This document shows positions 1,405 through 63,891 of a DNA stretch of 64,000 bases, one piece after another. The translations under genes and the position numbers were made by a program. The number at the start of each line of letters is the position of its first letter. The first letter of the stretch is position 1. The DNA lies in contig JAULBX010023296.1 of assembly GCA_032358255.1 (NCBI GenBank), positions 62,001-126,000 of the forward strand. The letters are read 5' to 3'. The stretch is from Heterotrichella gracilis (taxonomy: Eukaryota > Sar > Xanthophyceae > Tribonematales > Xanthonemataceae). The notes beneath the pieces are model-generated. The model did no database searches. It saw only the letters and a program-made list of their open reading frames with translations, and was not told the DNA's origin.

Positions 1405-3650
1405 ATGGCAGCTGCACCGGAAGCGCAGAAGGAGAGGAAAAAGGTGTTAATCCACCCCGCCATCAAGGGATTGGCAGGTAATTCTGTTGCGCCAGTATTG
1501 AGACTGCTTGCTGGAAGCCCTTGGTGCATAGCGTTTTGCACAGTCTGCCGCAATGCATGCACTCAGTCAGGTCGGCGTTCGGAACGATGATGACTCATCT
1601 ATGCCTGTGACTGGTAAGGTATCAAAGTACCTAATATAGATAGCATAAGCTGACTTGCCCTCAGGAGGCCTGGCATGTGTACTTTGTTCTTATAGTCTCG
1701 GCACGTGTGTCATGCATGCGGCACGTTGCAAACCCCCGCCTGCCGCACGCAGCTTTTCGCACAAGCCATGCTTCCTGGCTGCAAGCTGAACGTTACCTAG
1801 GCATGCAATGCTTTCAAACAGGCTAATGGTAGAGGCGTGTCGTCCCTAGGCGTCATCAACTTGAATGTGACTCACTGCTTTGGCTCACTCAGGGTCCATG
1901 GGAGGCGTGGTGGAGGCAACTTGCCTGCAGCCAATCGACACCATCAAGACACGCCTGCAGCTTGACCATCATGGCAAATACAGGGGTAAGGCAACCTGCA
2001 CATGAACCACACTGTATGCATATCCACTGTGGCCCGTCAGCTTTTGTACCCCTCTCCTAGACCCTAGAGTCTAGGGTCTACACGGGCCCTAAGTTCTTTC
2101 TTGCTGACCTCCGCGGCTCTCAGTATGCTGTGTTTGAAGCATTGTTCTCACGATGTGCTGACGTGGCTCGTGCGGCGGTGTGGTTTTAGGTATCTATCAC
2201 TGCGGGAACACCATCATCAAGGAGGAGGGCACCCGGGCGCTGTGGAAGGGACTCACCCCTTTTGCAACGCACTTGACCCTCAAATACGCACTGCGGTTCG
2301 GCACCAACGCGTTCTACGGAGGTCTTTTGAGGGACAAGGTGCGCCGTGACCTTTGTTGAGGGTTACTTTGCTGTATATTCATGCCCCAAGGATATGGCCA
2401 CCTTTATTCACCGCCATCTAGACCTGGAGTCATGGTTTTGGCTGACTTGTGTGCATTGCCTTACACGATGTTCCCACGATGTCAAACCCTGTACAGGATG
2501 GAAACCTGTCGCAACACCGGCGGATGTTTGCTGGCTTCTGTGCTGGCGTGACTGAGGCGCTGCTGATTGTGACGCCCTTTGAGGTGGTCAAGATCAGGCT
2601 GCAGCAACAGAAGGGCATGGACAAGGCAGCCATCAAGTACAAGGTGGGCTTTATGTTAAAATTCAATTAAAAAAAATCTTGCTGCAATCTGTTACTTAGG
2701 ACTGTCAGCCTTGTGCGTCTTGAAGCAATGCCATGGCGTTGGGCATCGCCTTGGCGAGCGCAATGCCTTTGCCGTGCGCAATTGCTTTCCCAAGCAAAAA
2801 GCCCCGGCATGTTCTACCTCAGTTCCATTGGCTCTGCATGAAAGGCAAACCTCGCCATCTTGCCCAGCGTGTTATTCTATGTGTGTGCAGGGACCGGTGC
2901 ACGCTGCTGTGACGATCGTGCGGGAGGAGGGGGCCTTTGGCCTGTGGTCTGGTGCCGCGCCCACCATGCTGCGCAACGGCACCAACCAGATGTGCCTGTT
3001 CTGGGCCAAGAACAACCTGGACAACATCTACTGGGGCAAGAAGGAGGGCGATGGCACCGTGCTGTCCCCCGGGCAGTCCATGATTTCCGGGGCATCAGCG
3101 GCCATTCTGGGGCCCGTGGCGACGGGGCCATTCGATGTGATCAAGGTGCGTGTCATGGGTGAATGCACACCTGCCACAGGCGGTGTGGATTGGGTCGTTG
3201 AAACACGCTTGATGAACAATAAATAGTGGCACTTGCTGTGATTAGCCCCATTGTTAGTCCGTCTCCAGCAGTGTGTGGCATCCTTCTTGCCTGATTGTGT
3301 CAGCAACTAGGCTCGTGTACTGGCCTGTTAGTGGGAGCGTTTTGGACAGGAGGCAACGCGCTCCTTTTTGCTAATCCCACTTCCTCAACCCACCGCCTGT
3401 ACAAGTTCTCCATCTATGTACCTGCATGCAGACCCGCCTGATGGCACAACAAAAGGGCTCCCCCGGCACGCACTACACGGGCTTCTTCAATGCCCTGGTC
3501 ACCATCCCGCGTGAGGAGGGCATCCGCGCGCTGTACAAGGGGCTGCTGCCGCGCCTGCTGAGGATCCCCCCCGGCCAGGCCATTGTGTGGGCTGTGAGTG
3601 ACCAGATTGTGGGCTACTTTGAGGCGCGGGCAATGGCTGACCAAGTATAA
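1405..3650 (+). CDS. SFC1: Mitochondrial succinate/fumarate carrier (SLC25 family, plant SFC1 type)
   Basis: Six exons: 1405-1477, 1893-1985, 2190-2338, 2497-2643, 2891-3145, 3432-3650, all GT-AG and all in phase, giving 311 residues. The three SLC25 repeats carry the signatures QPIDTIKTRLQ, TPFEVVKIRLQ and GPFDVIKTRLM. The blocks LWKGLTPFATHLTLKY, RLQQQKG, LWSGAAPT, RNGTNQ and LLPRLLRIPPGQAI match the plant and yeast succinate/fumarate carrier closely, and the length is the family length. The product should sit in the inner mitochondrial membrane and exchange cytosolic succinate for matrix fumarate, linking the glyoxylate cycle to gluconeogenesis. The start ATG gives the short hydrophilic N-terminus usual for plant members. 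A decayed copy of the last exon lies just past the stop. Confidence 0.93.
2058..2080. repeat. Short near-perfect palindrome built on CCCTA in carrier intron 2
   Basis: TAGACCCTAGA is followed at once by its inverted form GTCTAGGGTCTA, with one mismatch at the centre. The sequence is a head-to-head arrangement of the CCCTA unit found in many introns of this window. No function can be read from it. Confidence 0.5.
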
Positions 3651-4718
3651 CGACCACATCAGGTCAGATGGGATCAGTACAGCGGCCAGGATCGTGGGGT
3701 ATTTTGAGTCCCAGGCAATGGAAGATGTTGTAGCGATCAGCCGCTGCTGAGGGTAGTGCTGCTCAGCAAGAGGTATTTTTGGGATGGTATACCGTGCTTG
3801 GGGTTCATATCCTGCTGCTACTCAGTATTCAGCATCAGTGCAAATGCTGAGACCATCTGGCGAGCATTAGATTTTGCAACCATTGATTAGGTGCTGTTAC
3901 GCAAGCCAAGGGCTGTGTACGGTCTTTTTGCTTGATTAGGGCGCATTGTGCCGCGCGAGGTACCTTTGCTTGTGGTACATACAGAGCACCGGCACACCTG
4001 TGTGACGTACTAGACTATTCAAATTATCCTGCACGCACACTATGTGTGCAGTTGACGTGCTACGATTGCTCAACAAATATGGGGCATCGCCAACATAACC
4101 ATACATCTTAGTTATTTAGTTACATTCATTCATTAGATATGTACATAATTGGACTGGGATCATCCTGAAGAGCTGCTTACACAGTGAACCGGTTTTGTTT
4201 CATCAATCCTGCTCCCAAGGCCTCATCCCGAGGTTCAACCAACGTGGTAGTCACTAGAAACCTAGAATGCATACGTACGTGTGCTCACCTATTGCACGGC
4301 TTGTAACAATAAATTTGCCTTTCCAGTGGTGAGTGCCAGGTACTAACTGAGACTGGAAACCCTGGTACCTGGTATATCAGGTAAAATAGACGAAAATAGA
4401 TTGGGTATTAGGGTAAGGGACTTGCCCTAAACTAGGGTGCTCGGTACCTCGCAACTAGTCCATCGAAAGCTTGCATGCATTGTGGCGGCTCTTTGCACCC
4501 GAGCAGCTATGGCGTCCATTAAAGTGGGTCGTTGCTGATATTCATCAGTTGTTGCACTGTTCCAACTTGGGGATAGCTCTCTGTCAAAGCAAAAAACGTG
4601 CAAAAACAAGTCACTGCCCAGTTGGGACTCAACCCTATCGCAGAGCAGTGTGTAGCATCAGTCAACCAAACTAGCGAGGAAAACAGCTGCATCACAAGGT
4701 AACCTCGAGGATTTCAGG
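3651..4718. other. Intergenic region: carrier 3' flank and TyrRS 5' flank
   Basis: No protein frame of substance beyond the exon copy at 3686-3742. A TGTAA at 4302-4306, followed by AATAAA at 4308-4313, could be a poly(A) signal, but it lies about 650 nt past the carrier stop. The bases directly before the TyrRS ATG (ATTTCAGG) look like a splice acceptor, so a leader intron is possible. Confidence 0.4.
3686..3742 (+). repeat. Decayed direct copy of the carrier's last exon, after the stop
   Basis: ATCGTGGGGTATTTTGAG and CAGGCAATGG match ATTGTGGGCTACTTTGAG and CGGGCAATGG of the last exon (about 3602-3655) in order and spacing. It still reads roughly RIVGYFESQAMEDVV against the true C-terminus QIVGYFEARAMADQV. 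It lies about 40 nt beyond the stop and is probably transcribed as 3' UTR. Confidence 0.75.
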
Positions 4719-7690
4719 ATGGGGGACACTGGCGGAGAGTTGGAGACGCAACAGGCTGTTGAGCAGCTGACTTTCGACATAGCGCAGCTCATGATCAAGC
4801 CCAAAGAGGAGTGAGTTGTCTGACGTTTTACCATAACAGGAGCTGTAACAAGTTGCCAGCTGTATCCTGTCAGCTGTATCCTGTTACGTTCAGTGCGTAT
4901 TCACCTGCCTTATGATACGGTGTGTAGGCTGACGTTGGACGAGAAGGTGGCGCTGTGCCTCAGCGTGGGGGAGGAGTGTATACAACCTGCCGAGCTCCGG
5001 GTGCTGCTAGACAAGAAGCCTGAGATATTTGCCTATGATGGGTTTGAGCCCTCGGGACGGATGCACATCGCGCAGGTATAGTGAGGCCGTATGCATGCAT
5101 GCACACGGGCACATGCATGCATAGTGTGGAGCCCACCCATCTTTGGGCCTCTTGCAGGGGGTGATGAAGGCCTTGAACGTGAACAAGCTGACGAGAAGTG
5201 GCATCACGTTTAAATTCTGGTGCGCCGTGTTTTCTCTCCTCCGTCACTGACAGCAACATCTGAAAGTGATTTACTGACCCTCTGGTGGGTTCCTTTTCAG
5301 GGTGGCAGACTGGTTTGCCCAGCTCAACAACAAGATGGACGGTGACCTGAAGAAGATCCAGACAGTGGGCAAGTACATGGTGGAGATCTGGAAGGCAGTG
5401 GGCATGGATATGGAGCACGTGCAGTTCTTGTCAGCATCAGAGGAGATCAACAAGCGGCCAGACGAGTACTGGACGCTGGTGATGGACATTGCGCGGAAAA
5501 ATAACCTGAAGCGGATAGTGAGGTGCTCGCAGATCATGGGGCGCAACGAGACTGACGACCTCTCGGCAGCGCAAATTTTCTACCCGGTCATGCAGTGCGC
5601 AGACATCTTTTTCCTCAAGGCAAGTGGCCAGCACTCTGAAGTTATACACCCTCCATCAAGGCCGCCATAGCTCGTTGAAGGGCTGGCCAGAACGGAAACA
5701 CTGGAATTGTGGGGGGGGGTTTCGTGCATTTGCCGGACATGGTGGGACATGGGTCCCTGACAAAAGCAGGGGCGCCATTGCATTCCCAATGTCCTGATGG
5801 AAATGACGACAGCTGGTTGTCTGATGCCCCATTCTTGGCCTTGCTCTGCAGGCTGACATCTGCCAGCTGGGCCTGGACCAGCGCAAGGTGAACATGCTTG
5901 CCAGGGAGTACTGCGATGAGTGCAAGCCCAAGCGCAAGTTCAAGCCCGTCATCCTGTCGCACCGAATGATGCCAGGCCTTCTGCAGGTGTGCAGGGTCAG
6001 CCTTTGAAGAGTTGTGCAGGACAGCCCGCCCTATGATTGCATGTACATCGGCAGTGCACCATTCCTGACATGCATTCCCACGTTTCCTCTCGTATACAAA
6101 TGCCAACACCCACCCATTCCCAGCAACCACCTTCCCCAACACACACCGTCCCCAATGCACATAATATCCCTACCACTCATCCCCACCACCTGCCATCCCG
6201 CCCCGCATCCCAGGGCCAGGAGAAGATGTCCAAGAGCGACCCCAACTCTGCAATCTTCATGGAGGACACAGAGGCGGATGTCAAGCTCAAGATCAAAAAG
6301 GCATTCTGCCCACCACAGGTGAGCTGCATGCATTGCTCTGCACCTCTCCGCTGCAGGGAATGCCTGCTTCTGTGCAGCATGTAGCCTATGTCTCGTCGAA
6401 ATGCGCAGGACCCTATATTATTTGTATCCTTATCAAGCAACATGCATGTCAGCAATATAGCTAGGCTAAAGTTAGTCTTGCTCCTTGGCGCCAAGCAGGT
6501 CTGCCCTGACATTGTTGCTACCATGTGTCAACCTTGCGCAATCTGAGTTCCTGTGGGTCGATTTATAGGTCGTTGAGGGCAACCCCTGCATCGAGTACAT
6601 CAAGTACATTGTGCTGCCCTGGTGCCGGGAGCTGACTGTGGATCGGCCAGAGGCAAACGGGGGCAGCAAGTAAGTGGAAGTCCCAATGGGCATGATCAAG
6701 GGTAAAAGGGCAATTATGGTTTTCGTCAGAAAATCCACTCGCAAGACTGTTAATCAATCAGTAATCATATTTAATTTAGTTTCCCCTTGAATTAGATTTG
6801 TCGCACATCGATCGCATATAAGATACGTTGTGCTGTTCTCCGTCTTACCCCTACATTCCAAAACCGCAGGACGTACACCTCCATGCCAGACCTGGAGGCT
6901 GACTACAGCAGTGGCGCGCTGCACCCCGGCGACCTCAAGCCCGCCCTCATCAAGGCGCTCAACTCCATCCTGCAGCCCGTGAGGGACCACTTTGAGAAGG
7001 ACCCAGAGGCAAAGGAGCTGCTGAAGAAGGTCAAGGTGAGAATACAATATATCAGCATGGTATCATATTTATAAATAATAACGAGAATAAGGAGAATAAA
7101 TGATAACGAGAATAGATAATGAAGCCGCGGCGGGCCCTATTAAATTGATGCTCTGCCAAGGGTTGGAGCGAATGCGACTGTGTGTTGACCCCCTAAGGTA
7201 GCTAATTGGATGCGAGAGAGAAAGTCAAGGTGAGGCGCTGGCAAGGGTTTAAACAGTGTGACCAAATGTAGTCCGCTGGGGATGCGAAGGCAATAGAGCT
7301 GCTGAAGGAGGACAGCAACCTTGCTGCGCTGGCTGGCTAGTATTTTAAACCCTAAGCCCTGAACCCTAACCATGCTGCGCTGATTGGCAAGCACTGGAAC
7401 AATGCGATCATGCAGCAAGAAGTTGAGGATAGGCTGGCCTTGCACAAGCATTCCTTTCCCACGCTCTAGGAGACCCGACTGAGTGGTTTATGACTTCCTC
7501 CCCTGAAGTCTACCAAGGGGACTGTACCTAGGTCCCCTAGGTACCTGAGCCCTCTACCGGAACCAGTGGGCTCCAGCAGCAGGGAGGGAAGTTGTTCAGT
7601 GATCCCAACCGTGCGAATGGTGTTCTCCATTTCCTTGTTGCATCCAACTGATTTTGTGTACGTGTGCAGTCCTACAAAACAACCAAGTGA
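4719..7690 (+). CDS. Tyrosyl-tRNA synthetase, cytosolic eukaryotic/plant type
   Basis: Nine exons: 4719-4810, 4928-5075, 5158-5219, 5301-5619, 5852-5986, 6214-6318, 6569-6669, 6870-7035, 7670-7690; 382 residues, about the length of plant cytosolic TyrRS. Class I motifs are present: FAYDGFEPSGRMHIAQ contains the HIGH-type HIAQ (about residue 77) and EKMSKSDPN is the KMSKS loop (about residue 253). Other family blocks are LSASEEIN, MQCADIF, KRKFKPVILSH and VVEGNPCIEYIKY. It charges tRNA-Tyr with tyrosine using ATP. The last exon adds only SYKTTK, a tail like that of plant enzymes; skipping it would remove the stop. Intron 4 begins with GC (AAG|GCAAGT) instead of GT. Intron 8 is long and carries decayed copies of exon 8. 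Confidence 0.94.
7213..7315 (+). repeat. Two decayed copies of the TyrRS exon 8 end inside intron 8
   Basis: Copy 1 (about 7213-7235) repeats the exon/donor junction: AAAGTCAAGGTGAGG against AAGGTCAAGGTGAGA at 7027-7041. Copy 2 (about 7281-7315) repeats the coding part: AGGCAATAGAGCTGCTGAAG against AGGCAAAGGAGCTGCTGAAG. A CCCTAA-rich tract follows at about 7348-7372. Copy 1 retains a donor-like GTGAGG. Confidence 0.65.
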
Positions 7691-7886
7691 GTTACCAGGA
7701 TGGCGATCAAGAGGCAAGATGGTGCAATTGGGAGCCTCGAGGTGCTGGCTGGTGACCCACCATGAGTAAATCTTATTCATAGAAGCCAAGCCATTGGCAT
7801 GGCGCCATTTTTTGCAGTACGGAGGTGTATTGGATTGGGAGGGGTGAGACTCATGCGGGACGGGTTTGCTGGCTATGCATTCGTAT

Positions 7887-7891
7887 TGTAA
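7887..7891 (+). terminator. Probable poly(A) signal TGTAA of TyrRS
   Basis: TGTAA, the usual green-algal polyadenylation signal, lies 197 nt past the TyrRS stop and is the first clear match downstream. Confidence 0.45.
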
Positions 7892-9368: not shown

Positions 9369-9523
9369 CTGTGCCCCATCCCAAACCCTGGCATGGGATG
9401 CTTAGGGTAAACAGTACAAGGGGTTGAGGGTGTTGCCTCCTCAACCCTGTGCCCCATCCACCACCCTGGATGGGGTGCTGCGCGAAAAACCCTGTACCCT
9501 ATTCAACACCCTGGCGTGGGGCG
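9369..9523 (+). repeat. Three imperfect copies of a roughly 30-bp unit
   Basis: Copies at about 9369-9400, 9445-9480 and 9490-9523 share the pattern CTGTGCCCCATCC - ACCCTGG - ATGGG, with growing divergence (the third reads CTGTACCCTATTC). They lie in the 3' flank of the alpha-amylase gene. Confidence 0.5.
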
Positions 9524-9617
9524 CGGCACCACACCACACAGCCTACACAACGCACATTGACCGCCCACGCCACAAAGCCTCGCCTCCAGGTCTGGATCCT
9601 TACAGGCAGAAGCCTCT

Positions 9618-12600
9618 TCACTTGCCCGCCCACACTGCAAAGCCTGGCCCGCTGACGATGATCTTCCACTCCTTGCCCTCACACTTCTCCTTGTTGGGCG
9701 ACCAGTCGCCTGGGCCCGCCTTCATGGCGATTTTGGAGTCAATGATGGCCGCGTAGCAGTCGCCCTGGGCCTTCTTGATGACAACCTGGAGGCGCGTGGG
9801 GGCATGAACTTGGTTTTGTGGTCCGTTTGGGTGTTACAGCGCAACCTGCCTTGTCGCTAACGCACTTCCCCACTTTATAAACACGCTGATATGACATGGA
9901 CCACTGCTCAGCTTGGAAACCCTTCTTGTATGAAACCCTTCTTTGATGAACCATTAATTACATGCTTAACAGACCTTTGTGTAATTATAATTGTCAACTA
10001 CACGCATTCCAGTGGCACAGCCAGGTCAGCAGCGAGCTTTGCCCATGCACCGCCAAGCACTTCTACCTACTACTTTTGTTCCTAATTACTGACTTATAGA
10101 CCGAGAATTGACGTAAAGAGCCCCAGGACTTGCACCAAAGCATCCCACAGACATGGCATAGCATCAATAAAAGCAAAGCAATGGGTAGCTATGCGGCACA
10201 AAAGCCAGGAGGCAATGAGGTAGGGCGGGTGGGACAGGAGGGAGCCTCACCTTTGACCGCGCGTTGATCCCGTAGTCCCTGCGCACCGCCAGCAGGTCGT
10301 TGACATGCTTGGAGTGCTGGTCGCTGACCCAGTGGTCCCAGAACACGCAGGGGGTGCCGCAGTGCGTGAGCAGGTAGGCGTAGCCCTCGGCGGCCTTGGA
10401 CCAGGGGAAGGGCCAATGCTGCAGGGTGGAGCCTGCGGGAGGGGGAGGCATGTGGTTAGGGTGTAGGGTTCGGGATTGAGGGCTAGGGCGAATGCTGCAG
10501 GGTGGAGCCTGCATGGGTGGGCATATGGCAAGATTTTACTTTATTAAAAACAACTCCTTTATTTGATATACAATTATAAGTATTACACTAAGTAAACGAA
10601 AAGAGGGTTAGGCAAAACGCCGATGCTGCAGCATGGAGCCTGCGAGGAGAGGGTGGTGGTGGAAAGGTCAGTGGTGCACAGTGGAGCCTGCTGGGAGTGT
10701 AGGGTCGGCTGCTCAGTGCAGGCATCCGTGTGCATGCAACGAGCCGGGAGGCTGCACCAGTGTCATGGTCTTTCAGAATTTGATGGGTATTTGTATGTGG
10801 GGTCTAGGTTCCAGGCATCACATTTCCCCCTGTTTGTCTCACCTGTGTCGTGGTTCTCCAGGAATGTGATTGCCCTGGACGGCCACATGCCCAGCACGCC
10901 TGGCGGGCGGCCCTGGTTGTCGATGAGGCGCCAGTACTCGCGCTTGTTCAGCGCCTCCTGGAGGATGCCTGCGCACGGGGGGGAGGTGGGAGGCGTCAGG
11001 AATTATTCACTGTAGGAATCATACCTGCTGCACATTCTGCACATGGGTGAAAGCGCAACTGGGGGGTGCTGGTAGGTTGCACAAGGCACTGTGCATGCGT
11101 ATGCATCCGGTGTTGGGTGTGTATACATAAGCGCTGGCTCGATGCACGTATGCTGGGTGGCCACCACTATTCATGTGGCGGTGAAGCAAGAGATCCCCCC
11201 GGTGCCCTACCCCCCCGCCCACCCATCCCTTTCCCCACCTTTGGTCGTGAAGTCAAAGGCCGCCGCGGTGCCCCCCGTTGAGTCGCACCAGTTGACGGTG
11301 CGCTGCCTGTGCCCGTCCTGGTTGTAGTTGAGCACGCCGTCTGTGTATGAGCATGTGTCCCAGTACTCGCCAAAGGCCATGAGGGGCACAGTGCTGTCGA
11401 TGTACTCCTTCACAAACTTGCCGTCGTAGCCCTGCGGGGTGGGTATAGGGTTTGGGGAGATAGGGTTTTAGGGTGCTGTCGATGTACTCCTTCACAAACC
11501 TGCCGTCGTAGCCCTGCGGGGTGGATGTAGGGTTTAGGGTTTGGGGAGCTAGGCTTCTCAGCATGCTGTTGTCGAATAGCCAATGAACAGCAATGAACCA
11601 TCAGTCCCATGCAAAGACAGCGCCAGCCATCAAAGCTCACAACCAGCACCACCACCTGGCCCCTCCGCCCCCACCCCCCCCAAACACCCACCTTGCCAAA
11701 GTCAAAGCGCCAGCCGTCAAAGCCCACATTGCGCAGCTTGCCTCCTCAAACCTATCCTGCCCAAGCCTTTGCCCACCCAACATCACCCACCCACCCCACC
11801 CGCCACCCATCTTGACAAAGTCAAAGCGCCAGCCATAAAGCTCACCACCACCACCACCACTAGACCCCTCCCCCCACCACCACCCACCTTGACAATGTCA
11901 AAGCTCACCACCACCAAGCCCCCCCACCCCCTCCCACACACACAACACCCACCTTGACAAAGTCAAAGCGCCAGCCGTCAAAGCCCACGTTGTTGCGCAG
12001 GTACTTGAGCCAGCCGCTGAGGTCCTCGCGCACAAAGGGCTGCGCGTGGTCCACGTTGGGGGCTGCGGGGTAGTCCTCGTAGGGCTTGAAGGAGCCCATG
12101 CCGCCAAACGCGTGGTTGTTGGAGCAGATGGCAGAGGTGTCCCAGGCCAGGCGGCCGCCAAACAGGTTCCACTTGCCGTCGGGGCTCTGCGGGGGGTGGA
12201 AAGAGGCGGGTGAGGGTAGGTGGGCGGCGTGTGCAGACTGCACATGGAGTGGGTGTTATGCGGCAGATGCAAATAGGGTCGGGGTACTTGCCCCCACCCC
12301 TCATCCCCTTGAAAACCCGCAGGCAAAGCTACCTATGCCGCCAAGTAGCTCAGCCACCTATGCCCCACCCAGTCCCCATCCACACCACCACCATACCAGT
12401 CCGCACCCATACCATTACCCATACCAGTAGCCCCCAGCCACCAAATCAGCAGCGCGAAAACCCCACCGGCACGTGCGCGCATCTGTGGTTGGTGTCGATG
12501 TCCGCAATGACCTCTGCATATCTGACCGCATATTTGACCGCATAATTGACCTTGATGTTGCTTTCATGCAGAGAGGAGATGCAGCCATGCAGCCCCGCCC

Positions 12601-15543
12601 CTGTCCCATACTGCCCCATATACTTTGCCCACCCACTCACGCCACCATCATCCCACCACCGTCCCCGCGACAACCACAACAGCATGCCACCCACCTGCGT
12701 GTGCGCGCATCTGTGGTTGATGACGATGTCCGCAATGACCTTGATGTTGTTTTCATGCAGCGAGGAGATGCAGTCGCGCAGCTCCGCCTCAGTGCCATAC
12801 TGGGAGTCCAGGCAGTACAAATCCCTGGGCAGGTAGCCCTGGGGGCTCACCGAGTCGCTGGGTGGGGGCAGCCAGATGGCGGTGAAGCCCGCGTCGGCAA
12901 TCTGCTTGGCCTGCAGATGTAAGGGTTTTGGGGTTAGTCTTTAGGGTTTGGGGGCAGCCAGATGGCGATGAAGCCTAAAGGGCAATCGCTTTGGCCTGCA
13001 GCGACCATGAAGCCCAGGTGAGGCACACATTGCCACTACCATGTTTTTGTCTACTCCACCATAATGGTCTGACAGACCGTTAGCAGACAATAATGCGTGT
13101 CTTGGAGTGGGGAATGGAGGCGCACACTGGGGGCACCACGAGCAGTCAGGGATTAGGGTTTAAGCTTGGGGTGTAGGGTTAGATTCATGGGTAGAGCAGG
13201 CCCGTGCGCCTAATGCAACGCCTGAGAGTGCAAGGGCTCGTGCACGCCAGACCTGAATGCAGCTGGGGTGGGGTTTAAGGCCGGCAATATCAGGGTTTCT
13301 GGAGCCCCACCTTTCCGCTGATCAGCTTGTACCATGGCTGGCGGTGGCTCTCCCAGTTGAAGCCCTGCAGGATGATCTCCTTGCCAGTGCCGCTGGCTGG
13401 GCCCGTGCCCACAGTGGTGCCGGTGAGGGAGGGCGGCTGCAGGGCACAGCACACGCATAGAGATAAGGCCATGGACTCTTGGGAAATATTGGGGCCACAA
13501 GTACATGTGGGGTACATGGACGTGCTGTAGCCACCTCCACAGCCACCGCAGGAGCCAGCATAAAAATTTTAAGCCAAAAGGCACAGCCACAGCCATGGCG
13601 TGCGTCATTTACCCCTGTAGGGTGCTAAATACCGCACGCACAACAACTTAAACCCTAACCCCCATGGACGTGGCTCGTAGCATTGTGCCCAGCTCCCAAC
13701 AATCTCATCGAGGCAATCCCAGTGCACAACCACCTGATTGCTGCAACGGCGCTTCCCCCCGCTTCCCAGCCCAACCCCGTGCATCCGCCCCCCTCCGCTC
13801 CCCCCCACCCACACAATGGTGCAGTAAACGCAATATTATTTAGTGATAAACCCACCGCAAATATGGAGGGCGGCTTGGCCTCCGGCGCCTTGACCGGCTC
13901 CTCCACCACCGGCGCCTGGCCCGTGCTCCGGCGCGCGGCCAGCACCGCCTCCATGGCCGCCATCTTGCGCTCCAGCATGGCGGCTGCCTCGGAGCGCTCG
14001 CCCTGCTTGGAGCTCAGCGCGGCGGTGTCTGCTTTGCCCTTGCTGGAGGACAGGGTGACCAGCTCGCGCTCGATGCTCACGAGCGCGGCGGCGGCTTGGG
14101 CCATCTCCGCGGCGGCGAGCTCCAGTGCAGAGGCGTCACCCTAGGATAGGGTATGTGGGTGTAAATTTGAAGTTGATTCTCATTTTTTGGGGGGGTTGGA
14201 TTTGAGGATTAAGGGTTTGGGATTTAGGGTTTGGCCTTGCTTCACGAGAGCGTGAGCTTGTGCTCAGTGACCCACGAGTGGCAACTGCTTGTGCCATGTC
14301 CACAGCGCCCAAGCTCCAGCACGGATGCACCCCTAAGGGTGCACCCAAAAGGCTTTTGGGGATGGTTTGTTGTCTGGGCATGCCCATGGGGGGAGGGTTG
14401 GTACCACGGCGTGGGATGGTAGATGCACATATGGCGCATGTAGTAGCCAGGTACTCCAACAGCGCAGGCCAAGCCAATGCCATGGCTTCATCTTTCAGCA
14501 CGGGTAGTGCCCCTGGCAGGTCTGTGCTCAACTTGAGGATACCAGAATGCAGTGAAACACTTGTGAGAGCGTAGCTGGCAGTCTGACTCAGTGTGCTCTG
14601 TTGGCTCCTGCCCCATCCCTACCTCCAGCACGGTTGCTGACAGGGGTTTCAACCGCCTGACTTCCGCTGCCGCGACCACTCCATAGATGGCTGGCCTGGA
14701 ACTCTTGCTGCTGCTCCCGATGAGCGTCAGCAACTGCGCCCGGATGTTGTCAAACTCTGACTCCTCAATCTGCACACACAAAGAAACGTTCTTTTATTGG
14801 TCCAAGGGATGGATGCACGCGATGTACTAAACAACACCTAATGTCTATGCTACCTGCCACACCGCTGCCAGTGGCTATCACCCAACAACCGCAACTGCCC
14901 TATGACAACTCCCCCCAGTTGTTTACACTACTTGTGCCCAAACACAAAGCAGTCGCAACATCTGTCTCTTCTTTCAAACTAACTCTTCTCCATCAGCCCA
15001 AGGGCAGGCCTGCCAAGCCCACCCCATGCTTGTCACGCTGCAAACGTAGGTGCAACAGTGAACGCAGCAGCTGCCCACCTTGGCATCCGCGCTGGTGACC
15101 ACCGCAAACACGTCCTTGACCTGGTTGCTGTTGTGGGTGGTGCTGATGTTGGCTGACACCACCGTGAGCTCCAGAGTGCTGAAGGCCCCCGTGAGCTGCA
15201 CCAGCAGGTCTGGCCTGTCTGGGCCCGCCACCGTGATGGTGGTGGCCTCTGGGTCTGACTCATTGTCAAAGCTGACAAACAGCTCGGCACTGCTGGTGGG
15301 CGCTAGCTCTGGAGCAGCAACATAGCAGCGGGCGCTCATGCCCCGGCCCTGCAAACAGCCAGAGGTTGCTTTCAAGGGAGTGCGCACCCCTACAGCAGGT
15401 GTGAAACTTGACGGGTGCAAGGCAGTGGCAGTGGGGGTGGGGGCAAAGGCTGGGCAACACGGCAGCAGGGGAGTGGGTACCATATGGTCTCTGACGGTCT
15501 GATGAGGAAGCGCAACTGTCATTGAACAGGGGTGGAGGGCCAT
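9618..15543 (-). CDS. Plastid alpha-amylase (GH13) with an N-terminal ACT domain
   Basis: Ten exons, 5' to 3': 15543-15079, 14769-14623, 14140-13856, 13436-13311, 12910-12695, 12186-11953, 11431-11239, 10968-10843, 10432-10251, 9785-9618; all phases agree, 713 residues. Residues 1 to about 80 are rich in Ser, Thr, Pro and Ala with few acids, like a chloroplast transit peptide. Residues about 85-170 form an ACT domain (TVAGPDRPDLLVQLTGAF, VVSANIST, VKDVFAVV). Residues about 205-300 are Ala/Glu-rich and probably helical. The GH13 part starts at ILQGFNWES and keeps all four conserved regions: DIVINHR, GWRFDF (nucleophile Asp), FGEYWD (acid Glu) and FLENHD. The catalytic part matches plant plastid AMY3. 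It should hydrolyse alpha-1,4 links of starch in the chloroplast. Four introns carry decayed exon-end copies. A longer N-terminus through the orphan exon at 15880-16045 is possible. Confidence 0.9.
10487..10697 (-). repeat. Three copies of the amylase exon 9 start in intron 8
   Basis: The exon 9 start with its acceptor (10411-10436, plus strand CAATGCTGCAGGGTGGAGCC) recurs at 10487-10512 (nearly identical), 10619-10645 and 10671-10697 (more decayed). A degenerate TTAGGG tract lies between the exon and the first copy (about 10455-10485). The first copies keep an acceptor-like CAG in the same place. Confidence 0.75.
11473..11524 (-). repeat. Copy of the amylase exon 7 start in intron 6
   Basis: About 50 nt (plus strand GTGCTGTCGATGTACTCCTT through GCCCTGCGGGGTGG) repeat 11391-11442 with one or two changes. 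The two copies are separated by a TTTAGGG-like tract and followed by another. In the sense strand the copy reads GYDGRFVKEYIDST beside the true GYDGKFVKEYIDST, complete with acceptor, so it could act as an alternative 3' splice site. Confidence 0.85.
11612..11910 (-). repeat. Four decayed copies of the amylase exon 6 end in intron 6
   Basis: The exon 6 end and donor (plus strand ACCTTGACAAAGTCAAAGCG onward, 11950-11998) recurs at 11689-11741 (nearly intact, donor included), 11811-11845, 11886-11910 and 11612-11640 (progressively shorter and more changed). C-rich spacers (CCACCACCACC) separate them. The repeated coding part is GFDGWRFDFVK, which holds the catalytic Asp region. Confidence 0.85.
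12463..12592 (-). repeat. Copy of the amylase exon 5 end in intron 5, with an internal expansion
   Basis: The exon 5 end (12691-12780) encoding ISSLHENNIKVIADIVINHRCAH is repeated at 12463-12592 as ISSLHESNIKV - VIADIDTNHRCAH. The copy has an extra 30-odd nt made of TGACCGCATATT-like units in its middle. Confidence 0.8.
12950..13002 (-). repeat. Copy of the amylase exon 5 start in intron 4
   Basis: GGGGGCAGCCAGATGGCGAT through TTGGCCTGCAG repeats the exon 5 start (about 12864-12915) with small deletions. The two copies are separated by a TTTAGGG-like tract at about 12920-12950. Confidence 0.75.
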
Positions 15544-18578: not shown

Positions 18579-18674
18579 GCGCGACACCATTGGGCGCGTG
18601 CTACTGCTGCTTCTTGCGACAGTGTCTTGCTTTGTTGGGGACAGCTGTTGTGTGCTGGGACAGCTCCGGCTGCT

Positions 18675-53549: not shown

Positions 53550-54938
53550 ATGGCCGCGCAATTTGCCCACTCAGAGTTGTCGTTGTCAACAACAGTGCGA
53601 TCAAACAGCAGACTAGCAGTCCAGGACCGTGCCCTACCTCGCTCCTGTTGCCCACGACGACCTAGGCGCACGGCATGCATCCTGCATGCTGGGAGGGACC
53701 GACACTGCGTGGTGCACGACTTGTTGGACCAAATAGTGGCATATGAAGAGGTACCTATACTTGAAAGTGTTACACTGTACCTGTATCTTCCGCACACTGG
53801 GGCAAAGCAATGCACTGCAGCAAGGGCACCATGCTACGTGTGCATGATGGCTGCTGTTCACAGCACCTTGTCCCTCAGAAATCAAACATTTCCTCAGGAT
53901 TGGTTCACTTTGAAAATTCAGAACCTTGTTATTGGTGCAGGCATGGGACTGGCAGCACCAGCTGCTGCACGAGGCCTGCGAGCACCCCGAAGGGTTTCAA
54001 GAAACCCTCCTGCTGCTCCAGCACAGTCCCGTGTACACCCTAGGCGCAGGCAGCACCCACGACCACCTCAAGTTTGACACGCAACAGCCACCTCACCCGC
54101 TGTTTGTCACCGAGCGGGGCGGGGAGGTGACGTTCCATGGCCCGGGGCAGCTGGTGCTGTACCCAGTGCTCAACCTGCAGCAGCACCACACGCCTGACCT
54201 GCACTGGTACCTGCGCCAACTGGAGGAGGTGGTGATCAGGTGAGGGGATACCCTGACCATGGTAGTCATTCAGCTCCTAGCAACCCACCGGGCTGCATTG
54301 CAACATCGCCATGGCATTGCATCATCGCCATGCAACAGATACGCCATGGCATTGCAACATCGCCATGCAATGAATACGCCGTGGCATTGCAGCGGTTATG
54401 TGGCTATTGGAGCCAACCTAATGGCCTCTGGTCAATGCAAGGCATAGATCAGGAGGATTTCAATATCTGTGAAATACTTAATCCCTCCTGCATTGACACC
54501 AAACACTTGCAGAACTCTGCGATCAAAATGCTGACCTAATAATCAATGCTCACCTGCAGGGCCCTGGCGCGAGTCTCGGGGCTCCACGCCACCCGGGAGG
54601 CGGGCCTCACTGGGGTGTGGGTGGGTGGCACAAAGGTGGCGGCATGCGGCATCCGCGCCAAGCGCTGGATCACCTACCACGGAGTGGCCCTCAATGTCAC
54701 CACCGACCTCTCCCCCTATGACCACATCGTCCCCTGTGGCATTGCCGACCGCCGCGTGTCCAGCGTCAAGCATCTGCTGTTTGAGCGGGATGGCGTGAAC
54801 AGCGTGAATGACGAGCTGCTGCTGCGGTGCTACAGGGAGGGGCTGCTGGATGCGTTTGCCGAGGTGTTTCAGGTGGAGCTGGACAGGAGCACAGAGCGCC
54901 CTGTGGCACGGCCAGCACAGCTCCTGACAGCTGCTTAA
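53550..54938 (+). CDS. LIP2p: Octanoyl-ACP:protein octanoyltransferase, plastid type (LipB family)
   Basis: Three exons: 53550-53750, 53941-54239, 54560-54938; phases agree, 292 residues. The first 50 residues are rich in Ser, Arg and Ala with almost no acids ([19 protein letters not shown]), fitting a chloroplast transit peptide. LipB core follows: [42 protein letters not shown], the catalytic-type Lys in [18 protein letters not shown] and the Cys in IVPCGI. The enzyme moves octanoyl groups from acyl carrier protein to the lipoyl domains of plastid pyruvate dehydrogenase, the first step of lipoate assembly. A mitochondrial location cannot be excluded from sequence alone. Confidence 0.94.
54294..54392 (+). 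repeat. Small 35-bp tandem repeat in LIP2p intron 2
   Basis: Units 54313-54347 and 54348-54382 (GGCATTGCATCATCGCCATG then CAACAGATACGCCAT) differ at about four positions. Partial units flank them at 54294-54312 and 54383-54392. Confidence 0.8.
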
Positions 54939-56024: not shown

Positions 56025-59000
56025 TCATTTCCAGCCCTTGCTGGGGCTCTTGCTAGGGCTCTTGGCAGGCGAGCGCCGCGCGCTGCTGCTGCTGCCAGCG
56101 GCCGCCTCCCGCGTGCTCCTGATCTTGCTCAGGGCCCTCTCCCGTGACGCAGCCAGGGCCGCCTGGTAGTCGCTGGTGGCGCCGGGGGGGCTCACGGGCT
56201 CTGCGGCAGTCTCCATGTCAGGCAGGTCACGCTCCTCGGTGAGGCGAGGCTGGGTGCTGGATGTGGTGCGGGCAGTGGTGCTCATGATCTTCTGCACTGC
56301 GGGTGGCCGCTGGCTGGTGGACCTACAAGGCAGGGAAATGAGATCAGATGATAGAGGCCTGGTAATTTAATGCGTCCCCATGCATGCATCATAGCACGTC
56401 ACATGAGCTCGATGCAGCAATCGCCATGCCGCACTGCCCAATGTACATCATTGGTACTACATGGTGCACTTTGCATGGCCTTGCACTCGTCGCACCTTGA
56501 GACCTTCTTGGAGGGCGACTTGTCGGGTAGGCCACCCGACCGCCTGCGCTCCGACGCCTGGCGGGCCACCGGCTCAGCTGGCGCTGGTTCTGCCACGTAT
56601 GGCACTGCGGCCACAGGCTGCCACAACTGCATCTGGCTGTCGGTGGCTGCCGCATCGGCAATGGGATTCCTGGCCTCAATCTCAGGGGCAGGAGCCGCAT
56701 GCGATGCCAAAGCTAGCGCGTCAAGCGGCACCGCCGCCCTGGGGGAATCGGGCGCCGAGCTGTTACCGGATCCGTCCCAAAGGTCCTCGCGGGCGTCCTC
56801 AAATCGGTCGTAGTGGCTGGATTTGGAGTCTGCGCGGGCGAATCCTTGGGAGACCTGGCGGCCCAATGACTGCTGCAGGGCGGGGAGGAGGGATGCCGCT
56901 GTGATGTGGATGGCCCTCTGGCTGGCAGCATTGCCCTTGAGCGAGCGCTCGGGGGGGTAGGCGGCGCCCAGGCGCATGTCGTTGGCGGCCTCCTCGCTAG
57001 CGGCGGCGGCGTACTCGGCGGCGCCCGGCTTGGTCTCGGCAAAGCGGTCGCGCAGCGCTGAGGTGGGCATGGTGGCGGTGGTCTCTGGGAGGGCACGTGC
57101 GGCGCGTGACCGGCGGCGCATTCTGCAGCACACTGCAAGGAGCAACCGGGATAGGAGGAGTGAGAAGGGGGTCGCACTGGAGTCTGAGTAACCAGGGCTG
57201 GCATCAGGGGGATGCAGTGTAAGCATGGTAGCCGCCAATGTGCACACTTGATGGGGCACGATGGACATGACCTAAATTGCAGCAGGCGATTGATTTGTTG
57301 ATGTCAATGGCCGGCCCAGCACCCCGCAAGCTAAAACCCTTACCTAGGGCAAGGAGGAGCAGTGCCACGCCGGCGCCCACACTGCAGCCAATCACGAGGG
57401 CCATGTGGCTGTCAAACCAGCTCTGGCTGCTGTCGGTGGAGGCAGGTGCGGGTGGGGGGCTGGGGGTGGTGCCGGTTGAGGAGGTGGGTGCGCTCGGTGT
57501 GCCATCGGTGGCAAAGTTGGGCACCTTGTTTGAGGTGGGAGGCGCCACTGGGGCTGCAACTGGTGCTGCGACTGGCGCTGTGGCTGGTGCTGGTGTGGGG
57601 GCAGTGGTGGGAGCTGCAGCTGGTGTTGTGGTGGGTGCTGGTGCAGGTGTGGAGGTGGTGGGCGCGGGGGCTGGGGTGGCGATGGGCTTGGTGACCGGTT
57701 TCTTAGGTGGCAGTGTAGGCACAACCTTGGGGGGTGCGACAACTGCCAACGGAGGTGGGGTGGCGGTAATGGCTCCCTTCAAGGTCAGGGTCTGGAGACT
57801 GGCAAAGCGCACAGCCAGGCCTGCAGAGAGCATTGAAGTTCAGGACAAAAGTCGCGCAGAAAATATTAGAACCCTGTACTATTCAACCCATCACTGTCAA
57901 CGCGGGCATCACCAGCATTATCCCCTAGATTCCGCCTGCTGTTATCCATGCCTGTGCGCCACTATATTCTCACGGTTTCCCATTTTTTACCAAACACACC
58001 CCTTGTTTTTCACCTCTACAAGAATGGTTTAGGTTTGCGCTTAGAGTTTGATGGTACCACACCCACCTTGTTTCTTCATTTCAGCCAGCATTGCGCCATC
58101 GTTATAAGCCTTGTTCAGGGCAGTGGCAGCCTGGCGGCCCTGGGTGGCGGCCACATCGGTGAGCACAGAGATATCCACACCGTTGGACGCGGCGGCCAGC
58201 AGGCGGCGGTTGCCCAGCCCGGCCCCAATCACGTAGTTCTGCAGCATTAGCCAGTGCAGGGTGAGGAGGGTGGGGAGAAAACAGGGGGTACAGTGGGGAG
58301 CAAGGGAATCTGGAGTATGGAGGGGAGGCATCTACTGCCCATGGGTTTATATGAACATGGGCAGACAGGTAAATGTAGGATGTTTCAATTCGGGTTATTT
58401 GCAAGCAGATTTGTAAACTAACACCAGGCAGCGCTGTGCAGGGTCACGATGTGCCTGTGCGAGTGCATAGCATGACCAAGGCGACCAGACTAATCTGTTG
58501 CAGCTAGTTGCTCAAGTGGATGTGCCTTGTCCCTGTCTTACCTGTGCCGTGAGGACGCTGACCCCTGTCACGTTCATTCCCTTGAGCACGCTCCTGTAGG
58601 CGCCTGCCACCTGGCTGTGGCCCTGGGCAGTGAGGGGGAAGAGACCAGTGCCAACCAGGCGAGCATTGGTGGTCACCGCTGCAACAGGTCCTGCACAGGC
58701 AAAGACTTTTGATTGAATTGGGTTCAACGACTGCGTGTTAGTGCATGGTGTGATGTAGAACCTGCCAGTTATCCTGGAGGTAGTCCCGTGCGTATACTAA
58801 AGCATGCATGGTGGGAACAAGGCATGACCTGGCGATGGCTAAAGAACATTTGCTCCATTCGACTGAGCGCCACGCGCGTTGCACCATGCTGGCTTTTGGT
58901 GGGACGTACCGGTAGCAGGCTTGACAATGGGAACAGGCGCCGTTGCGTTCTTCTTGACGTGGAGGGCGATTGCCAAAGCCTCTGCAAGGGTCAGTGGCTC

Positions 59001-59825
59001 GGTGCTGTTCTGCTCGGCTGCAGCAAGGGCTTGCGCCAGGGTTGGGCCCTTGGGAGGGGTTGGGACAGGCTTGACCACAGGCTTGACAACCGGCTTGACC
59101 ACTGGCTTGACTATTGGCTTAGTAGCGGGCTTCACCTGGTGGGTGGTGAGGGACACAGCACGGTCAGCAGCTGCCCCTGCCTAGGGTTCAGGCACACTGT
59201 GCAGCAAAGAAAGGAGCACAAGCCATACAGTTCCAGGAGGTTACGCCACACAAGGTGATGGAAGCAACACTCGTTTGCAGTGTCTAGTGCACACTGCCCT
59301 GTTTGCCTAGCGAAAGGAATATGCATGCTGCTGTCACCCACCTTCACAGGCTTGGTGGTGGCGTTTGCAGGCTTCAGCCACGGGATCAAGTCAAAGATGG
59401 TGGGGTTGTCTTGTTCAGCGGGAGCGGGCGCATTGGCTGTGCTACCCTTGCTGGGGGTGGTGCTTGGCTTGGTCCCGGAAGTGGTTGTGTTGGCGGTTGT
59501 GTTGGCGGGTTTGGGTGTGGGTGTCGTGATCATGATTGTGCTGGCGGGAGTATACACGAGGCTGCCACCACTGAGCACATTGGGACCCGTGGGGTCTGTA
59601 GCTGGCTGGGTTGTTGCACCCACGCCTGTGTTATCGGCTGCAGGCAAAGGTTGGGTGTAAACTTAGGCGTGTACGTACAGTGGCGGTTTGTCGTTGTGGC
59701 AGATGGATTTGGCCTTGCACGGCAAGTTTGCGCGGCATGGAAAGCAAATAGCAGTTCTTACCTATCGTTGAGTGACAGCACAATAGCGTGGCCAAAAGGG
59801 CCGCCAAGAGTGTGCTTCCCCGCAT
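56025..59825 (-). CDS. Single-pass membrane protein with Pro/Thr-rich ectodomain, function unknown
   Basis: Eight exons, 5' to 3': 59825-59762, 59637-59342, 59135-58910, 58690-58542, 58238-58067, 57820-57344, 57132-56496, 56322-56025; phases agree, 772 residues. A signal peptide (MRGSTLLAALLATLLCCHS) opens it. The ectodomain has Thr/Pro-rich stretches, a KPVVKPVVKPVVKPV repeat (about residues 127-140), and a folded-looking part (VTGVSVLTAQ, RRLLAAASNGVDISVL, LAVRFASL) of a kind seen repeatedly in algal surface proteins. A long APAPTTTPAA-type stalk precedes one membrane helix (ALVIGCSVGAGVALLLLAL), followed at once by a CCRMRRRSR stop-transfer. The cytosolic tail of about 310 residues ends in SPAKSPSKSPSK, likely phosphorylated. 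A cell-wall or matrix sensor is a reasonable guess, not shown. Confidence 0.85.
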
Positions 59826-60980: not shown

Positions 60981-63891
60981 CTACAGCTGCTTCACACTCA
61001 GGCTGCGCAGGCGGTTGAGCGCGGCAGCAATCTCATGCTTGCGGGGCCGAGCTAGGTGGCCAACCTTGAAGCTGGGAGAGAGGACATCAAGGCCCTGCAT
61101 GACACCAGTACAACCCCCTCAGCGCAGCAGTAGAATAGGCCACCCCGCGTCACACTAAACAAGGAATTACACACCACACTAGCGCACATGCAGTGGCAGT
61201 GCCGCCGCGTGCAGGACTGTGGAAATGGTGTGCACTGCAGCCAGCTCCAACACCAAACCACCCATACCCCACCCACCTCGCGGTCAATCTTGGCATCCAT
61301 CTGCTGTATCACCGTGGCCAGCGGCATGCCCCTCAGCTGCTGGGAGGTGGCCAGCACACTGCGCATGACCAGCAGCGCCTCTGCAATGGCGCGCGTCTGG
61401 GACTTCTCCACGATCTGCTCCACCGCAGACAGGTCGATCTCCTCGTCGCCAAAGGAAACTACGGTCTTGGAGCGCACCGCCACCTTGAGCTGACCTGTAG
61501 CCACGCAGCAAGGGGGTCAGCTATGCTGCAGGGTTCGGATATGCTGCGGGGTTCAGATATGTGGCTGGGGGTATGCTGCATGCATGAGGAGAACTTGACT
61601 AAACATGCCACGCAGATGCTGGTGATGGACTTTGACACTGGAGTCCAGGATCCTCTGCCCTTATGTCCATCTCAATGCGCAATGTAACCGAGTTGCCTGT
61701 ACAGGCGCTTTTGCATGCATCCCCAACGACCTATACCCATTGCCCCCTTCCCAAATCAAAGACCCACCCACCCACCCTCACAGCATCACACACTTGCCAC
61801 CACGCCCACCCAACTCACCTGACCCCGGGTGCACCTGCACAATGGCGCGAGGGGTGACAGGCCCATACATCTCACTGGGCGGCCCCGCGGCCGCTGACGA
61901 TGCAAAGCGCTGGGCGATGGCCCTGGCCTCTGCCGTCACATCCCTGGCCTGGAAGGCCTCCATGCACAGCACGGAATCTGCCACGTCAAAGTAGTCTCCC
62001 GATCCCCCGATGACCAGTATGCAGGAGGTGCCGCGCTGCGCCAGGGCCCGTATGCGGTGGATGAATGGCGTGATGGGCTCCTTGTCCTTGGACACCAGTG
62101 CCTGGGGAGGTGAAGGTTCAGGATTTAGGGTTCAAGAGTCAGGGTTTACAGGATGAAGGGCGTGTTGGGCTCCTTAGACACCAGCGCCTGAAGAAGATTA
62201 CGGTTAAGAAGTGAAGGGCATATGCGTTTACCCATGCGGGGATTGTGCATTGGTGTGCAAAGGAGAGGGGAAAGGGTGGGGTTATAGGGCACAGAGCAAG
62301 CTATAGGAGATAGGTATAGGAGATATAGGGCACAGAGCAAGCTAGCCGGGCCTGCAGGGTTCACGCCACACACACGCACAGCAAGAACTGCCCCGCCTGC
62401 CTACCTGCATGCGCGCATCGCGTATCATGAAGTTGGTTGCGCAGGTGTCCTCATCCAGCAGCAGCGTACTGGCACCCATCTCAAGCGCCTCCTGCAAGAC
62501 AGATAGCAAAACTGTTAATTAAACAATCGCAGTAAAAGGGTTTTAATCACAGCATAGCATGCTAGAATGGCATGGAGCTGTGCCGCATGTATATCATCCT
62601 TGTATTTAAATTACACCCCAACCGTATATATTCCAGGTCGGCTCCCGTGTGACTGTTCTTAACACCACATCTGATTGGCACGCGCCTGTACCTGTATGTT
62701 AGCTGCCTGAGACGTGCTCCCACTGGCATCATCGGATGAGAAGCAGTTAGTGTTGCGCCCAAAGGGCAGGTTGGATATGAAGGGAGAGATGTCGACACCC
62801 TCCACCCGCCTGCCATCCTCCGCACGGATCTTGACTGCGTCGGGGTCTGTGGCCACCAGCTCCCGACCATCACCAGGCACCTGTGGGATGCGTGAAATAC
62901 ATGAATAAACCAATAAATAAAGAAGTAACCAAATACACATATAAATAAATTGACTCGATTTTAGTACATGAGTGTGCAGCCTTTCAGGCGCGTTGGGGAG
63001 TTGGTAAATACAGGGGCAATGTCTTGCATGTCCCCAACCATTGGGTGCGTGGGACCATGTCTCCAGCCTATCTCTGTGCGTCATACCACTGGCAGGGGTC
63101 ACACGATGCTTGGGATGCCCGACATGTCGATACTCGCATGGATCCTTTGGCATAAAATTAAGACAACAAGTATAATTAAAGTCCCCTACTTTGTTGTAAA
63201 CGCCAGCCTCGATGGCATTTAGGAGCGTGGTCTTTCCATGGAACCCGCCGCCCACAACCAGCGATATGCCCCGCCGGATGCCCATCCCCCTCACTGTCCC
63301 CCTGTGGGGCAAGGTGGCCTCCACCTCCAGTGCAAGGGGGGATTGGAAGGGAACTGCGGAAGTAGAGGGCATGGGTTCCTCTGATGCCCCGGACAACCTG
63401 CATACGCCACGAGAGTGCCGTTCAACCTGCATCTATTGGTGCTGGGTGCTGACCACGATGGATGATGGCGTGGAAGGAGTTGTACAGCCACAACAACCTC
63501 CAACCAGTAGTTTGAAGGGTCGGCAGCACATGGCTTATCGAGCCACCCAATAGGAATGTAGGTGTAGTTTGGCTTATTATCGACATCGATCGATTATAAA
63601 GTTGGCTGGGGATGAGGCATGGGATGGCAACTTGCAGTTCACATCCCATGGCTAAAATACGTTTTGCATGATGGAGAGCAATAACTACATGCATGCAAGC
63701 CCCTGTATGCAGTGGCACAGGCAGTACTATGCGATACCCACCTTGGCAGTATGGCCCCGTTGCCAACGAACGCCACTAAGCCCATCCCGGCCAGCGCATC
63801 CCTCAGCGCCTGGGTGTCCTCTACGCAGTCCACGTGGCGCTGCACAGCTGGCCCATCCAGAGAGGGGTAGTGAAACACCTCGGTGATGTAC
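60981..63891 (-). CDS. Predicted ABC-class ATPase (ABC_ATPase family), 3' part; gene continues past the right edge
   Basis: Exons seen, 5' to 3': 63891-63742, 63397-63190, 62880-62692, 62491-62405, 62101-61819, 61494-61277, 61094-60981; phases agree, about 416 residues, N-terminus missing. The family, found in bacteria and plants, has an ABC-like ATPase core: LVAFVGNGAILPR, GMGIRRGISLVVGGGFHGKTTLLNAIE (Walker A), DPDAVKIRAEDGR, DISPFISNLP, the signature-like DASGSTSQAANI, LLLDEDTCATNFMIRD (Walker B) and VIGGSGDYFDVAD. The reaction is ATP hydrolysis; the cellular role of the family is not established. The sequence left of 64000 starts in an intron. A decayed copy of the exon that begins ALVSKDKEPITPF lies just upstream of it. 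Confidence 0.92.
62152..62195 (-). repeat. Decayed copy of an ATPase exon start in the preceding intron
   Basis: GAAGGGCGTGTTGGGCTCCT, TAGACACCAGCGCCTGAAG matches GAATGGCGTGATGGGCTCCT, TGGACACCAGTGCCTGGGG at 62063-62107. In the sense strand it reads ALVSKEPNTPF beside the true ALVSKDKEPITPF. A GGATTTAGGGTTC - AGGGTTT tract separates the two. Confidence 0.82.

Follow-up and report, generated by a model that had tools for sequence, protein, structure and literature searches.

Direct copies of exon ends in adjacent introns of Heterotrichella gracilis, with telomeric repeat at many of the joints

The stretch of DNA considered here (the window; 64,000 nucleotides of Heterotrichella gracilis, G000:C233:62001-126000 in an assembly of 68.5 Mb and 903 contigs) holds genes for a carrier, a tyrosyl-tRNA synthetase (TyrRS), an alpha-amylase, a DUF599 protein, a coiled-coil protein, a BRWD protein and an ABC-type ATPase, together with a LipB-like gene. 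In several of them the end of an exon recurs as a direct copy in the neighbouring intron, and telomeric repeat often lies between the two copies. Exon and intron borders were taken from a self-training gene finder, trained on the genome's own sequence, which converged on the donor CAG/GTRAGT and the acceptor TGCAG/G (a scan of viral contigs with the acceptor pattern matched 17 stretches). The gene finder fused the carrier and TyrRS genes, which are closely spaced and run in the same direction (1405-7340), and called some of the copies tiny exons. A second gene model, built with one noncoding model and with telomeric tracts masked, gave 422 introns with a median length of 258 bp. All five of the predicted window proteins that were checked have Pfam matches; the nearest named relative of the DUF599 protein is from Chlorella vulgaris (52% identity), and another relative is 86% alike.

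The copies were analysed in a sample of 293.7 kb, comprising the window and 24 further stretches, 17 of which come from contigs other than C233. Four stretches of low GC content (L009, L014, L032 and L033; 40 of the 293.7 kb) were set aside, so that the main counts refer to 253.7 kb; the four are listed separately in the repeat-pair count but were retained in the 293.7-kb sample used for spacer comparison and for counts of telomere 10-mers. They lie on contigs C1, C100, C43 and C83, have a GC content of 0.35-0.385 and long reading frames, and together contain one telomere 10-mer cluster, five direct repeat pairs and no inverted pair; probably they belong to another organism within the assembly. 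The 253.7 kb contain 101 local direct repeat pairs and one inverted pair (at most 600 bp apart, score at least 40), while two rounds of locally shuffled sequence yielded none.

Direct copies of exon ends in adjacent introns, as described in an earlier note on this DNA, are borne out both inside and outside the window. When 100-bp exon ends were compared with their own intron at a score of at least 26, 16/196 matched in the window and 47/565 outside it, against 5/980 and 10/2825 for random introns; a smaller draw of random introns in the window gave 0/761 pairs at this score, and reverse-complemented sequence gave 0/196 in the window and 1/565 outside. At a score of at least 34 the figures are 13/196 versus 0/980 in the window and 35/565 versus 1/2825 outside, and the match rates of the window and of the held-out stretches agree. 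The alignment of introns with their own flanking exons that the earlier note had proposed as a check gave the same picture: with 60-bp exon ends and a score of at least 38, there were 37/796 matches in the own intron, 1/796 in the intron two away, and 0/796 each in random introns, shuffled sequence and reverse complement, the last two remaining at 0/796 even at a score of at least 30. Chance similarity is thereby ruled out, given the empty shuffles and the single match among 2825 random introns at a score of at least 34. The exon-end copies are real and present on many contigs. Terminal exons matched their intergenic flank in 2/77 cases at a score of at least 38, which is not clearly lower than the 37/796 for introns; copies may therefore form without a splice site.

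At a score of at least 44, the 253.7 kb contain 66 duplication clusters, with aligned copies of 26 to 221 bp (median 74, 66 pairs). The two copies are separated by 20-174 bp in 48/66 cases and lie less than 20 bp apart or overlap in 18/66. Only one duplication is wholly within an exon, and it is in frame. According to the gene-finder models, none of the 66 pairs combines a donor in one copy with an acceptor at the corresponding position of its partner, so the process looks like intron growth rather than intron birth.

The telomere motif of Chlamydomonas is TTTTAGGG. In the present genome the telomeric repeat is TTTAGGG, arrays of which open contigs C70 and C140, and it is also abundant internally: a telomeric 17-mer has 2437 matches genome-wide (overlapping matches counted) versus one for the reversed motif, and the 293.7-kb sample contains 461 exact telomere 10-mers, whereas the reversed motif gives eight and none of three other 7-base motifs more than 11. 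This repeat is associated with the duplications. A telomere 10-mer lies within 22/66 clusters, where 7.8 were expected and the highest of 2000 draws was 17. Spacers are telomere-like at p<=0.05 in 25/66 clusters (about three expected), compared with six left and five right flanks. Conversely, direct flank copies bracket 30/89 telomeric tracts at a score of at least 36, versus 49/1000 random positions (Fisher p 5e-15), with 0/1717 for mismatched flanks and 0/89 for inverted ones; with 200-bp flanks, 28/87 tracts are bracketed. Among 14 picked perfect 28-mer tracts, which were first inspected by eye, six are bracketed at a score of at least 32 and five at a score of at least 36 (random stretches of the same size, 90/2000 and 77/2000), and three of the seven 17-mer loci on contig C2 are bracketed at a score of at least 36. 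When the 42 spacers of at least 30 bp were compared with the 293.7-kb sample, telomeric repeat was shared and only two other matches, of 20-22 bp, were found. Of two spacers compared with the whole genome, the non-telomeric one in a young duplication (L016:6570-6716) matches four other genomic places over its last 60-65 bp at 80-82%, and the other has no match elsewhere. The link between telomeric repeat and exon-end duplication is strong, and as the repeat often forms the joint, telomerase or a telomere-like mode of healing should be counted as part of the mechanism. Telomerase is the likely agent; two stretches on contig C626 match the telomerase RNA-binding domain.

The sites in the window illustrate the range of forms. 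On the forward strand, the end of the last carrier exon (3605-3636) recurs at 3690-3721 (score 34) in the 3' flank, which the gene model treats as intron, and no telomeric spacer is seen. The alpha-amylase gene, on the reverse strand, holds several sites. On the acceptor side, an exon start at 10403-10432 is copied at 10479-10508 (within 10403-10528; score 45), with a telomere-like spacer at 10456-10478 (p 0.00). At 11391-11569 an acceptor and exon start are duplicated with an 82-bp shift (11391 to 11473; score 46), and the joints carry CCCTAAA-like tracts (spacer p 0.04). On the donor side, the exon end 11953-11992 has several decayed copies, one at 11692-11731, in an array that spans 11619-11992 (score 70) and contains no telomere 10-mer. 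Exon sequence at 12736-12788 recurs at 12547-12599 (within 12462-12802; score 76) with a spacer that is not telomeric, while the exon start 12863-12916 and its copy at 12949-13001 (score 49) are separated by a telomere-like spacer at 12917-12948 (p 0.00). Finally, an exon of the amylase gene model at 14061-14125 recurs at 14255-14319 (score 31), with telomere-like sequence at 14201-14234 in between.

In the DUF599 gene, on the forward strand, the intron 26902-27302 contains copies of both flanking exons, at 26969-27026 and 27092-27158 (within 26820-27370; scores 46 and 63), and the spacers of these copies, derived from 26820 and 27303, are not telomeric. An array at 27492-27802 consists of exon-end and donor copies (27492 to 27691) with CCCTAAA tracts between them; a similar array on contig C487 (G000:C487:111409-111722) has three units spaced by about 87 bp, each of which begins with a donor-like CAGGTGAG and continues with a telomeric tract. 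On the acceptor side, the exon start 28031-28094 is copied at 27871-27933 (within 27857-28094; score 95), with a spacer that is not telomeric (p 0.97). The coiled-coil gene has, on the reverse strand at 33382-33555, an array of an acceptor plus about 18 bp of exon start with CCCTAAA-like tracts between the copies. A weak exon-end match links 37870 to 37782 (score 27). In the BRWD gene, on the forward strand, an exon end at 42748-42825 recurs at 42939-43016 (score 71; spacer not telomeric), an exon start at 45405-45451 has an upstream copy at 45275-45320 (score 46; telomere-like spacer, p 0.04), an intron tail, acceptor and exon start are duplicated head to tail at 45745-45947 (no telomeric spacer, p 1.00), and donor-side sequence at 47970-47990 is copied at 48071-48091 (score 32). 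In the ABC gene, on the reverse strand, an acceptor and exon start at 62059-62083 recur at 62151-62175 (score 40), with a telomere-like spacer at about 62111-62148. Exons of the ABC-type gene model also contain short tandem repeats of 12, 24 and 27 bp (57547-57679 and 59065-59120), multiples of 3 bp that give repetitive protein stretches. Seven genes had been named as carrying exon-end copies. The carrier, amylase, DUF599, BRWD and ABC genes pass the score test; the coiled-coil array fails it, although evident by eye in the sequence; and TyrRS drops out, as none of its introns passes and its repeat at 5360/5393 lies inside one exon. The estimate of about 17 events was fair, with 16 scoring exon ends of which several are arrays (27492-27802 and 11619-11992).

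The duplications are far from evenly placed. Exon sequence is touched by 63/66 of them (38.7 expected), whereas three are confined to an intron (16.1 expected) and none is intergenic (11.2 expected); outside the window the exon-touching fraction is 51/54 (30.6 expected), and if contig C233 is left out altogether it is 43/45. Placement matched for GC content raises the expectation from 38.7 to 47.9 (the match being incomplete for two of the 66), with 63 observed, so GC explains part of the preference but not all of it. Two possible artefacts were rejected. A detection bias due to exon conservation does not account for the result, as 14/15 pairs at least 88% alike still touch an exon (8.2 expected), nor does the low-complexity filter, as 56/60 pairs touch an exon without it (35.4 expected), in a count that omitted pairs spaced less than 40 bp apart, low-complexity pairs and mainly telomeric pairs. 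An intron of the LipB-like gene contains a 35-bp minisatellite (54299-54391), an intron-only tandem array without exon sequence, which is absent from the 66 clusters and falls outside the rules of the unfiltered count, so intron-only arrays are somewhat undercounted. In the pairs with one clear border and at least 88% similarity, the copied stretch includes 6-15 nt of intron at donors (three cases) or 7-17 nt of intron at acceptors (five cases), together with 16-104 nt of exon.

The telomeric tracts show a related placement. In the second gene model 80/88 are intronic, eight intergenic and none exonic, and 60/422 introns hold one; tract density per 10 kb is 7.20 in introns versus 0.62 in intergenic DNA in the first model and 6.22 versus 1.58 in the second. 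For 28 of the 80 intronic tracts the nearest splice site is 10-20 nt away (8.0 expected), and for four it is closer than 10 nt (7.4 expected), the latter deficit fitting survival only where the true splice site is intact. The gene finder might have been biased to place introns at tracts; however, the second model retained the splice-site peak. Genome-wide, with overlapping matches counted, a donor motif is followed by a tract at 4-34 bp in 235 cases and at 104-134 bp in 80, and tracts precede acceptor motifs in 711 cases versus 376 in the comparison range. No 5'-to-3' gradient of tracts along genes was seen.

Tracts occur in both orientations in introns (50 and 34). Near acceptors the CCCTAAA sense exceeds TTTAGGG, 29 to 12, whereas near donors the two are even (21 and 22), which fits insertion regardless of orientation combined with avoidance of AG before the acceptor. 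Where tracts of opposite orientation meet, head-to-head joints are in excess: 199 versus 55 tail-to-tail joints genome-wide (controls, 2 and 0), 3 versus 0 within the sample, and 39 versus 14 when distinct loci were counted by eye over the contig range comparable in both listings (p 0.0008). A clean joint, with a TTTAGGG run abutting a CCCTAAA run, lies at L015:472-506.

With moderate confidence, we read these sites as scars of staggered breaks at or near exons, at which telomerase acted on one or both ends before the overhangs were filled and the ends rejoined, and which persist where they can be spliced out. A staggered break would open across or beside an exon end, leaving a single-stranded overhang of tens of nucleotides, sometimes more, and on one side or both telomerase would extend the 3' end with TTTAGGG repeats. 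Filling in the overhangs would place the same stretch on both sides, so that end joining would give copy, telomeric tract, copy; direct copies flanking an insert are the expected product of such filling in. Extension of one end would produce a tract of single orientation, and extension of both a head-to-head joint. Scars inside coding sequence would be lost through selection, whereas those spanning a splice site could be spliced out with the intron, by use of the first donor or the last acceptor, and would persist and decay as intron sequence. The break, the overhang, the action of telomerase and survival by splicing are what we infer from the copies, their orientation, the spacers and their position. 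Staggered-break repair had already been suggested as the kind of mechanism, and the 101 direct pairs to one inverted agree with this; the idea of a recurrent exon-border process that lengthens introns also stands, on many contigs, but the telomeric joint had been missed and uniform local duplication proves insufficient.

Several observations weigh against this account. The spacers are not telomere-like in 41/66 clusters, and these may be old tracts, other filler or the product of a second process; some young duplications, with copies 97% and 93% alike, contain other filler. Flanking duplication was not detected at 59/89 tracts, nor at eight or nine of the 14 picked ones. Tract-end phases in 96 runs are uneven, without a clear priming pattern. 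In 38 single-border pairs, arrays included, the intronic part of the copy ranges from 1 to 170 nt (medians 29.5 for 20 donor and 18 for 18 acceptor cases), so that a fixed cut point is unsupported. Selection at acceptors alone could produce, from the 29:12 bias, a head-to-head excess of about 1.5 to 1, against which the 39 versus 14 loci give p 0.03. Moreover, random breaks would scar intergenic DNA and intron interiors, where 0 and 3 of 66 duplications are seen, and an exon preference must therefore be added. Break repair leaves the preference beyond GC content unexplained, and the model needs a source of breaks that is biased towards exons; perhaps chromatin, methylation or transcription marks the exons on which breaks preferentially fall.

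Tandem duplication or replication slippage might instead make the copies, with tracts either pre-existing or grown by slippage, and selection leaving the spliceable products. The 41/66 spacers without telomeric signal, the 18/66 pairs that overlap or lie less than 20 bp apart (such as 45745-45947) and the unit expansion in arrays such as 27492-27802 are all in keeping with this, but telomeric signal between copies (25/66) exceeds that beside them (six and five), whereas pre-existing tracts should also adjoin the copies and yield no head-to-head excess, and 48/66 pairs have 20-174 bp between copies. Uniform duplication also predicts 16.1 intron-only and 11.2 intergenic cases, where three and none are observed; with 63/66 touching an exon against 38.7 expected (47.9 GC-matched), it fails to account for the data, and we regard tandem duplication or slippage as an unlikely explanation. 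Another possibility is polymerase-theta-like end joining that copies nearby flank as filler, with telomeric fragments captured from chromosome ends. The unrelated filler in some spacers, in one of them partly matching four places at 80-82%, and non-telomeric spacers of up to 174 bp would suit such a pathway. However, polymerase-theta joining should yield flank copies in inverted as well as in direct orientation, which the one inverted pair against 101 direct does not bear out, and captured fragments would have one orientation and no head-to-head excess, making this explanation improbable.

The layout of copy, insert and copy and the preference for introns also recall a transposable element or introner that ends in a telomere-like tail, makes a long target-site duplication and is often reduced to the tail. 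This is very improbable, as the 42 spacers share, within the 293.7-kb sample, only telomeric repeat and the two 20-22 bp matches, of the two compared genome-wide one was matched elsewhere and the other nowhere, and the tracts lie in either orientation (50 and 34 in introns) and also meet head to head. Hardly any weight can be given to the view that tracts are kept or selected near splice sites as splicing signals, with the duplications as side effects: it would explain the peak at 10-20 nt and the 29 to 12 excess of CCCTAAA near acceptors, but orientation is even on the donor side (22 TTTAGGG, 21 CCCTAAA), the acceptor bias is what avoidance of AG would give, and the duplications are left unexplained.

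The component processes are known. In mammals, short interstitial telomeric sequences are inserted during double-strand-break repair, and telomerase at breaks has been proposed (Nergadze 2007, PMC2246262). As in mammals, the tracts described here are short internal arrays of the host's own telomeric motif. In the mammalian loci of that study, deletion is the commonest modification and flank duplication occurs in 6/130 rodent and 4/25 primate cases, whereas in the present genome flank duplication accompanies 30/89 tracts, about a third of tracts being bracketed by detected duplications tens of bp long; the tracts are also concentrated in introns beside splice sites, with 2437 17-mer matches (overlapping ones included) in the 68.5-Mb assembly. 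The mammalian insertions were established via empty orthologous sites (PMC2246262), while the present scars are read from one genome alone. For the telo boxes of Arabidopsis and rice, likewise genome-internal telomere motifs, a model has been set out in which telomerase works at free 3' ends within transcribed DNA (Gaspin 2010, PMC3022908), but they favour 5' UTRs and show no enrichment in introns overall, although the first two introns hold more of them (PMC3022908); here most of the motifs are in introns close to splice sites, where they form multi-repeat tracts and are often accompanied by copied exon ends. When coding sequence that contains a proto-splice site is duplicated in tandem, a new intron can be created (Lehmann 2010, PMC2891723), and this route shares with the present case an exonic duplication of which one copy turns intronic; in contrast, existing introns grow here, and the corresponding donor/acceptor layout is seen in 0/66 pairs. 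The introner elements of Micromonas, another recurrent intron-associated sequence in an alga, reach nearly to both splice sites according to a review (PMC3488318), but the spacers tested here share no sequence family except the telomeric repeat. In a limited check of literature on Auxenochlorella, Trebouxia, Chlamydomonas and telomere reviews, the portions covered mention telomeric repeats but not this pattern, and within that thin selection the combination was not found described.

From the 66 duplication clusters in 253.7 kb, the genome would by extrapolation contain thousands of scars of one kind. Intron growth and the residues of break repair are usually inferred from rare events, and here many of the scars would bear both a tag (the telomeric repeat) and a record of the overhang (the duplicated stretch). 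Simple counts could then show how long the overhangs of natural breaks are, how often telomerase is used, in which orientation, and which targets are chosen, and telomerase at work outside chromosome ends would be connected with the length of introns and with the provision of duplicate splice sites. That telomerase is a routine partner in repairing exon-preferring staggered breaks, and that the resulting scars are a main source of intron growth and spare splice sites genome-wide, is a more tentative proposal, plausible but short of probable; judged from sequence, a supply of spare splice sites by the copies is only possible. The exon preference, for its part, points to a feature of exons, at the level of DNA, that attracts breaks.

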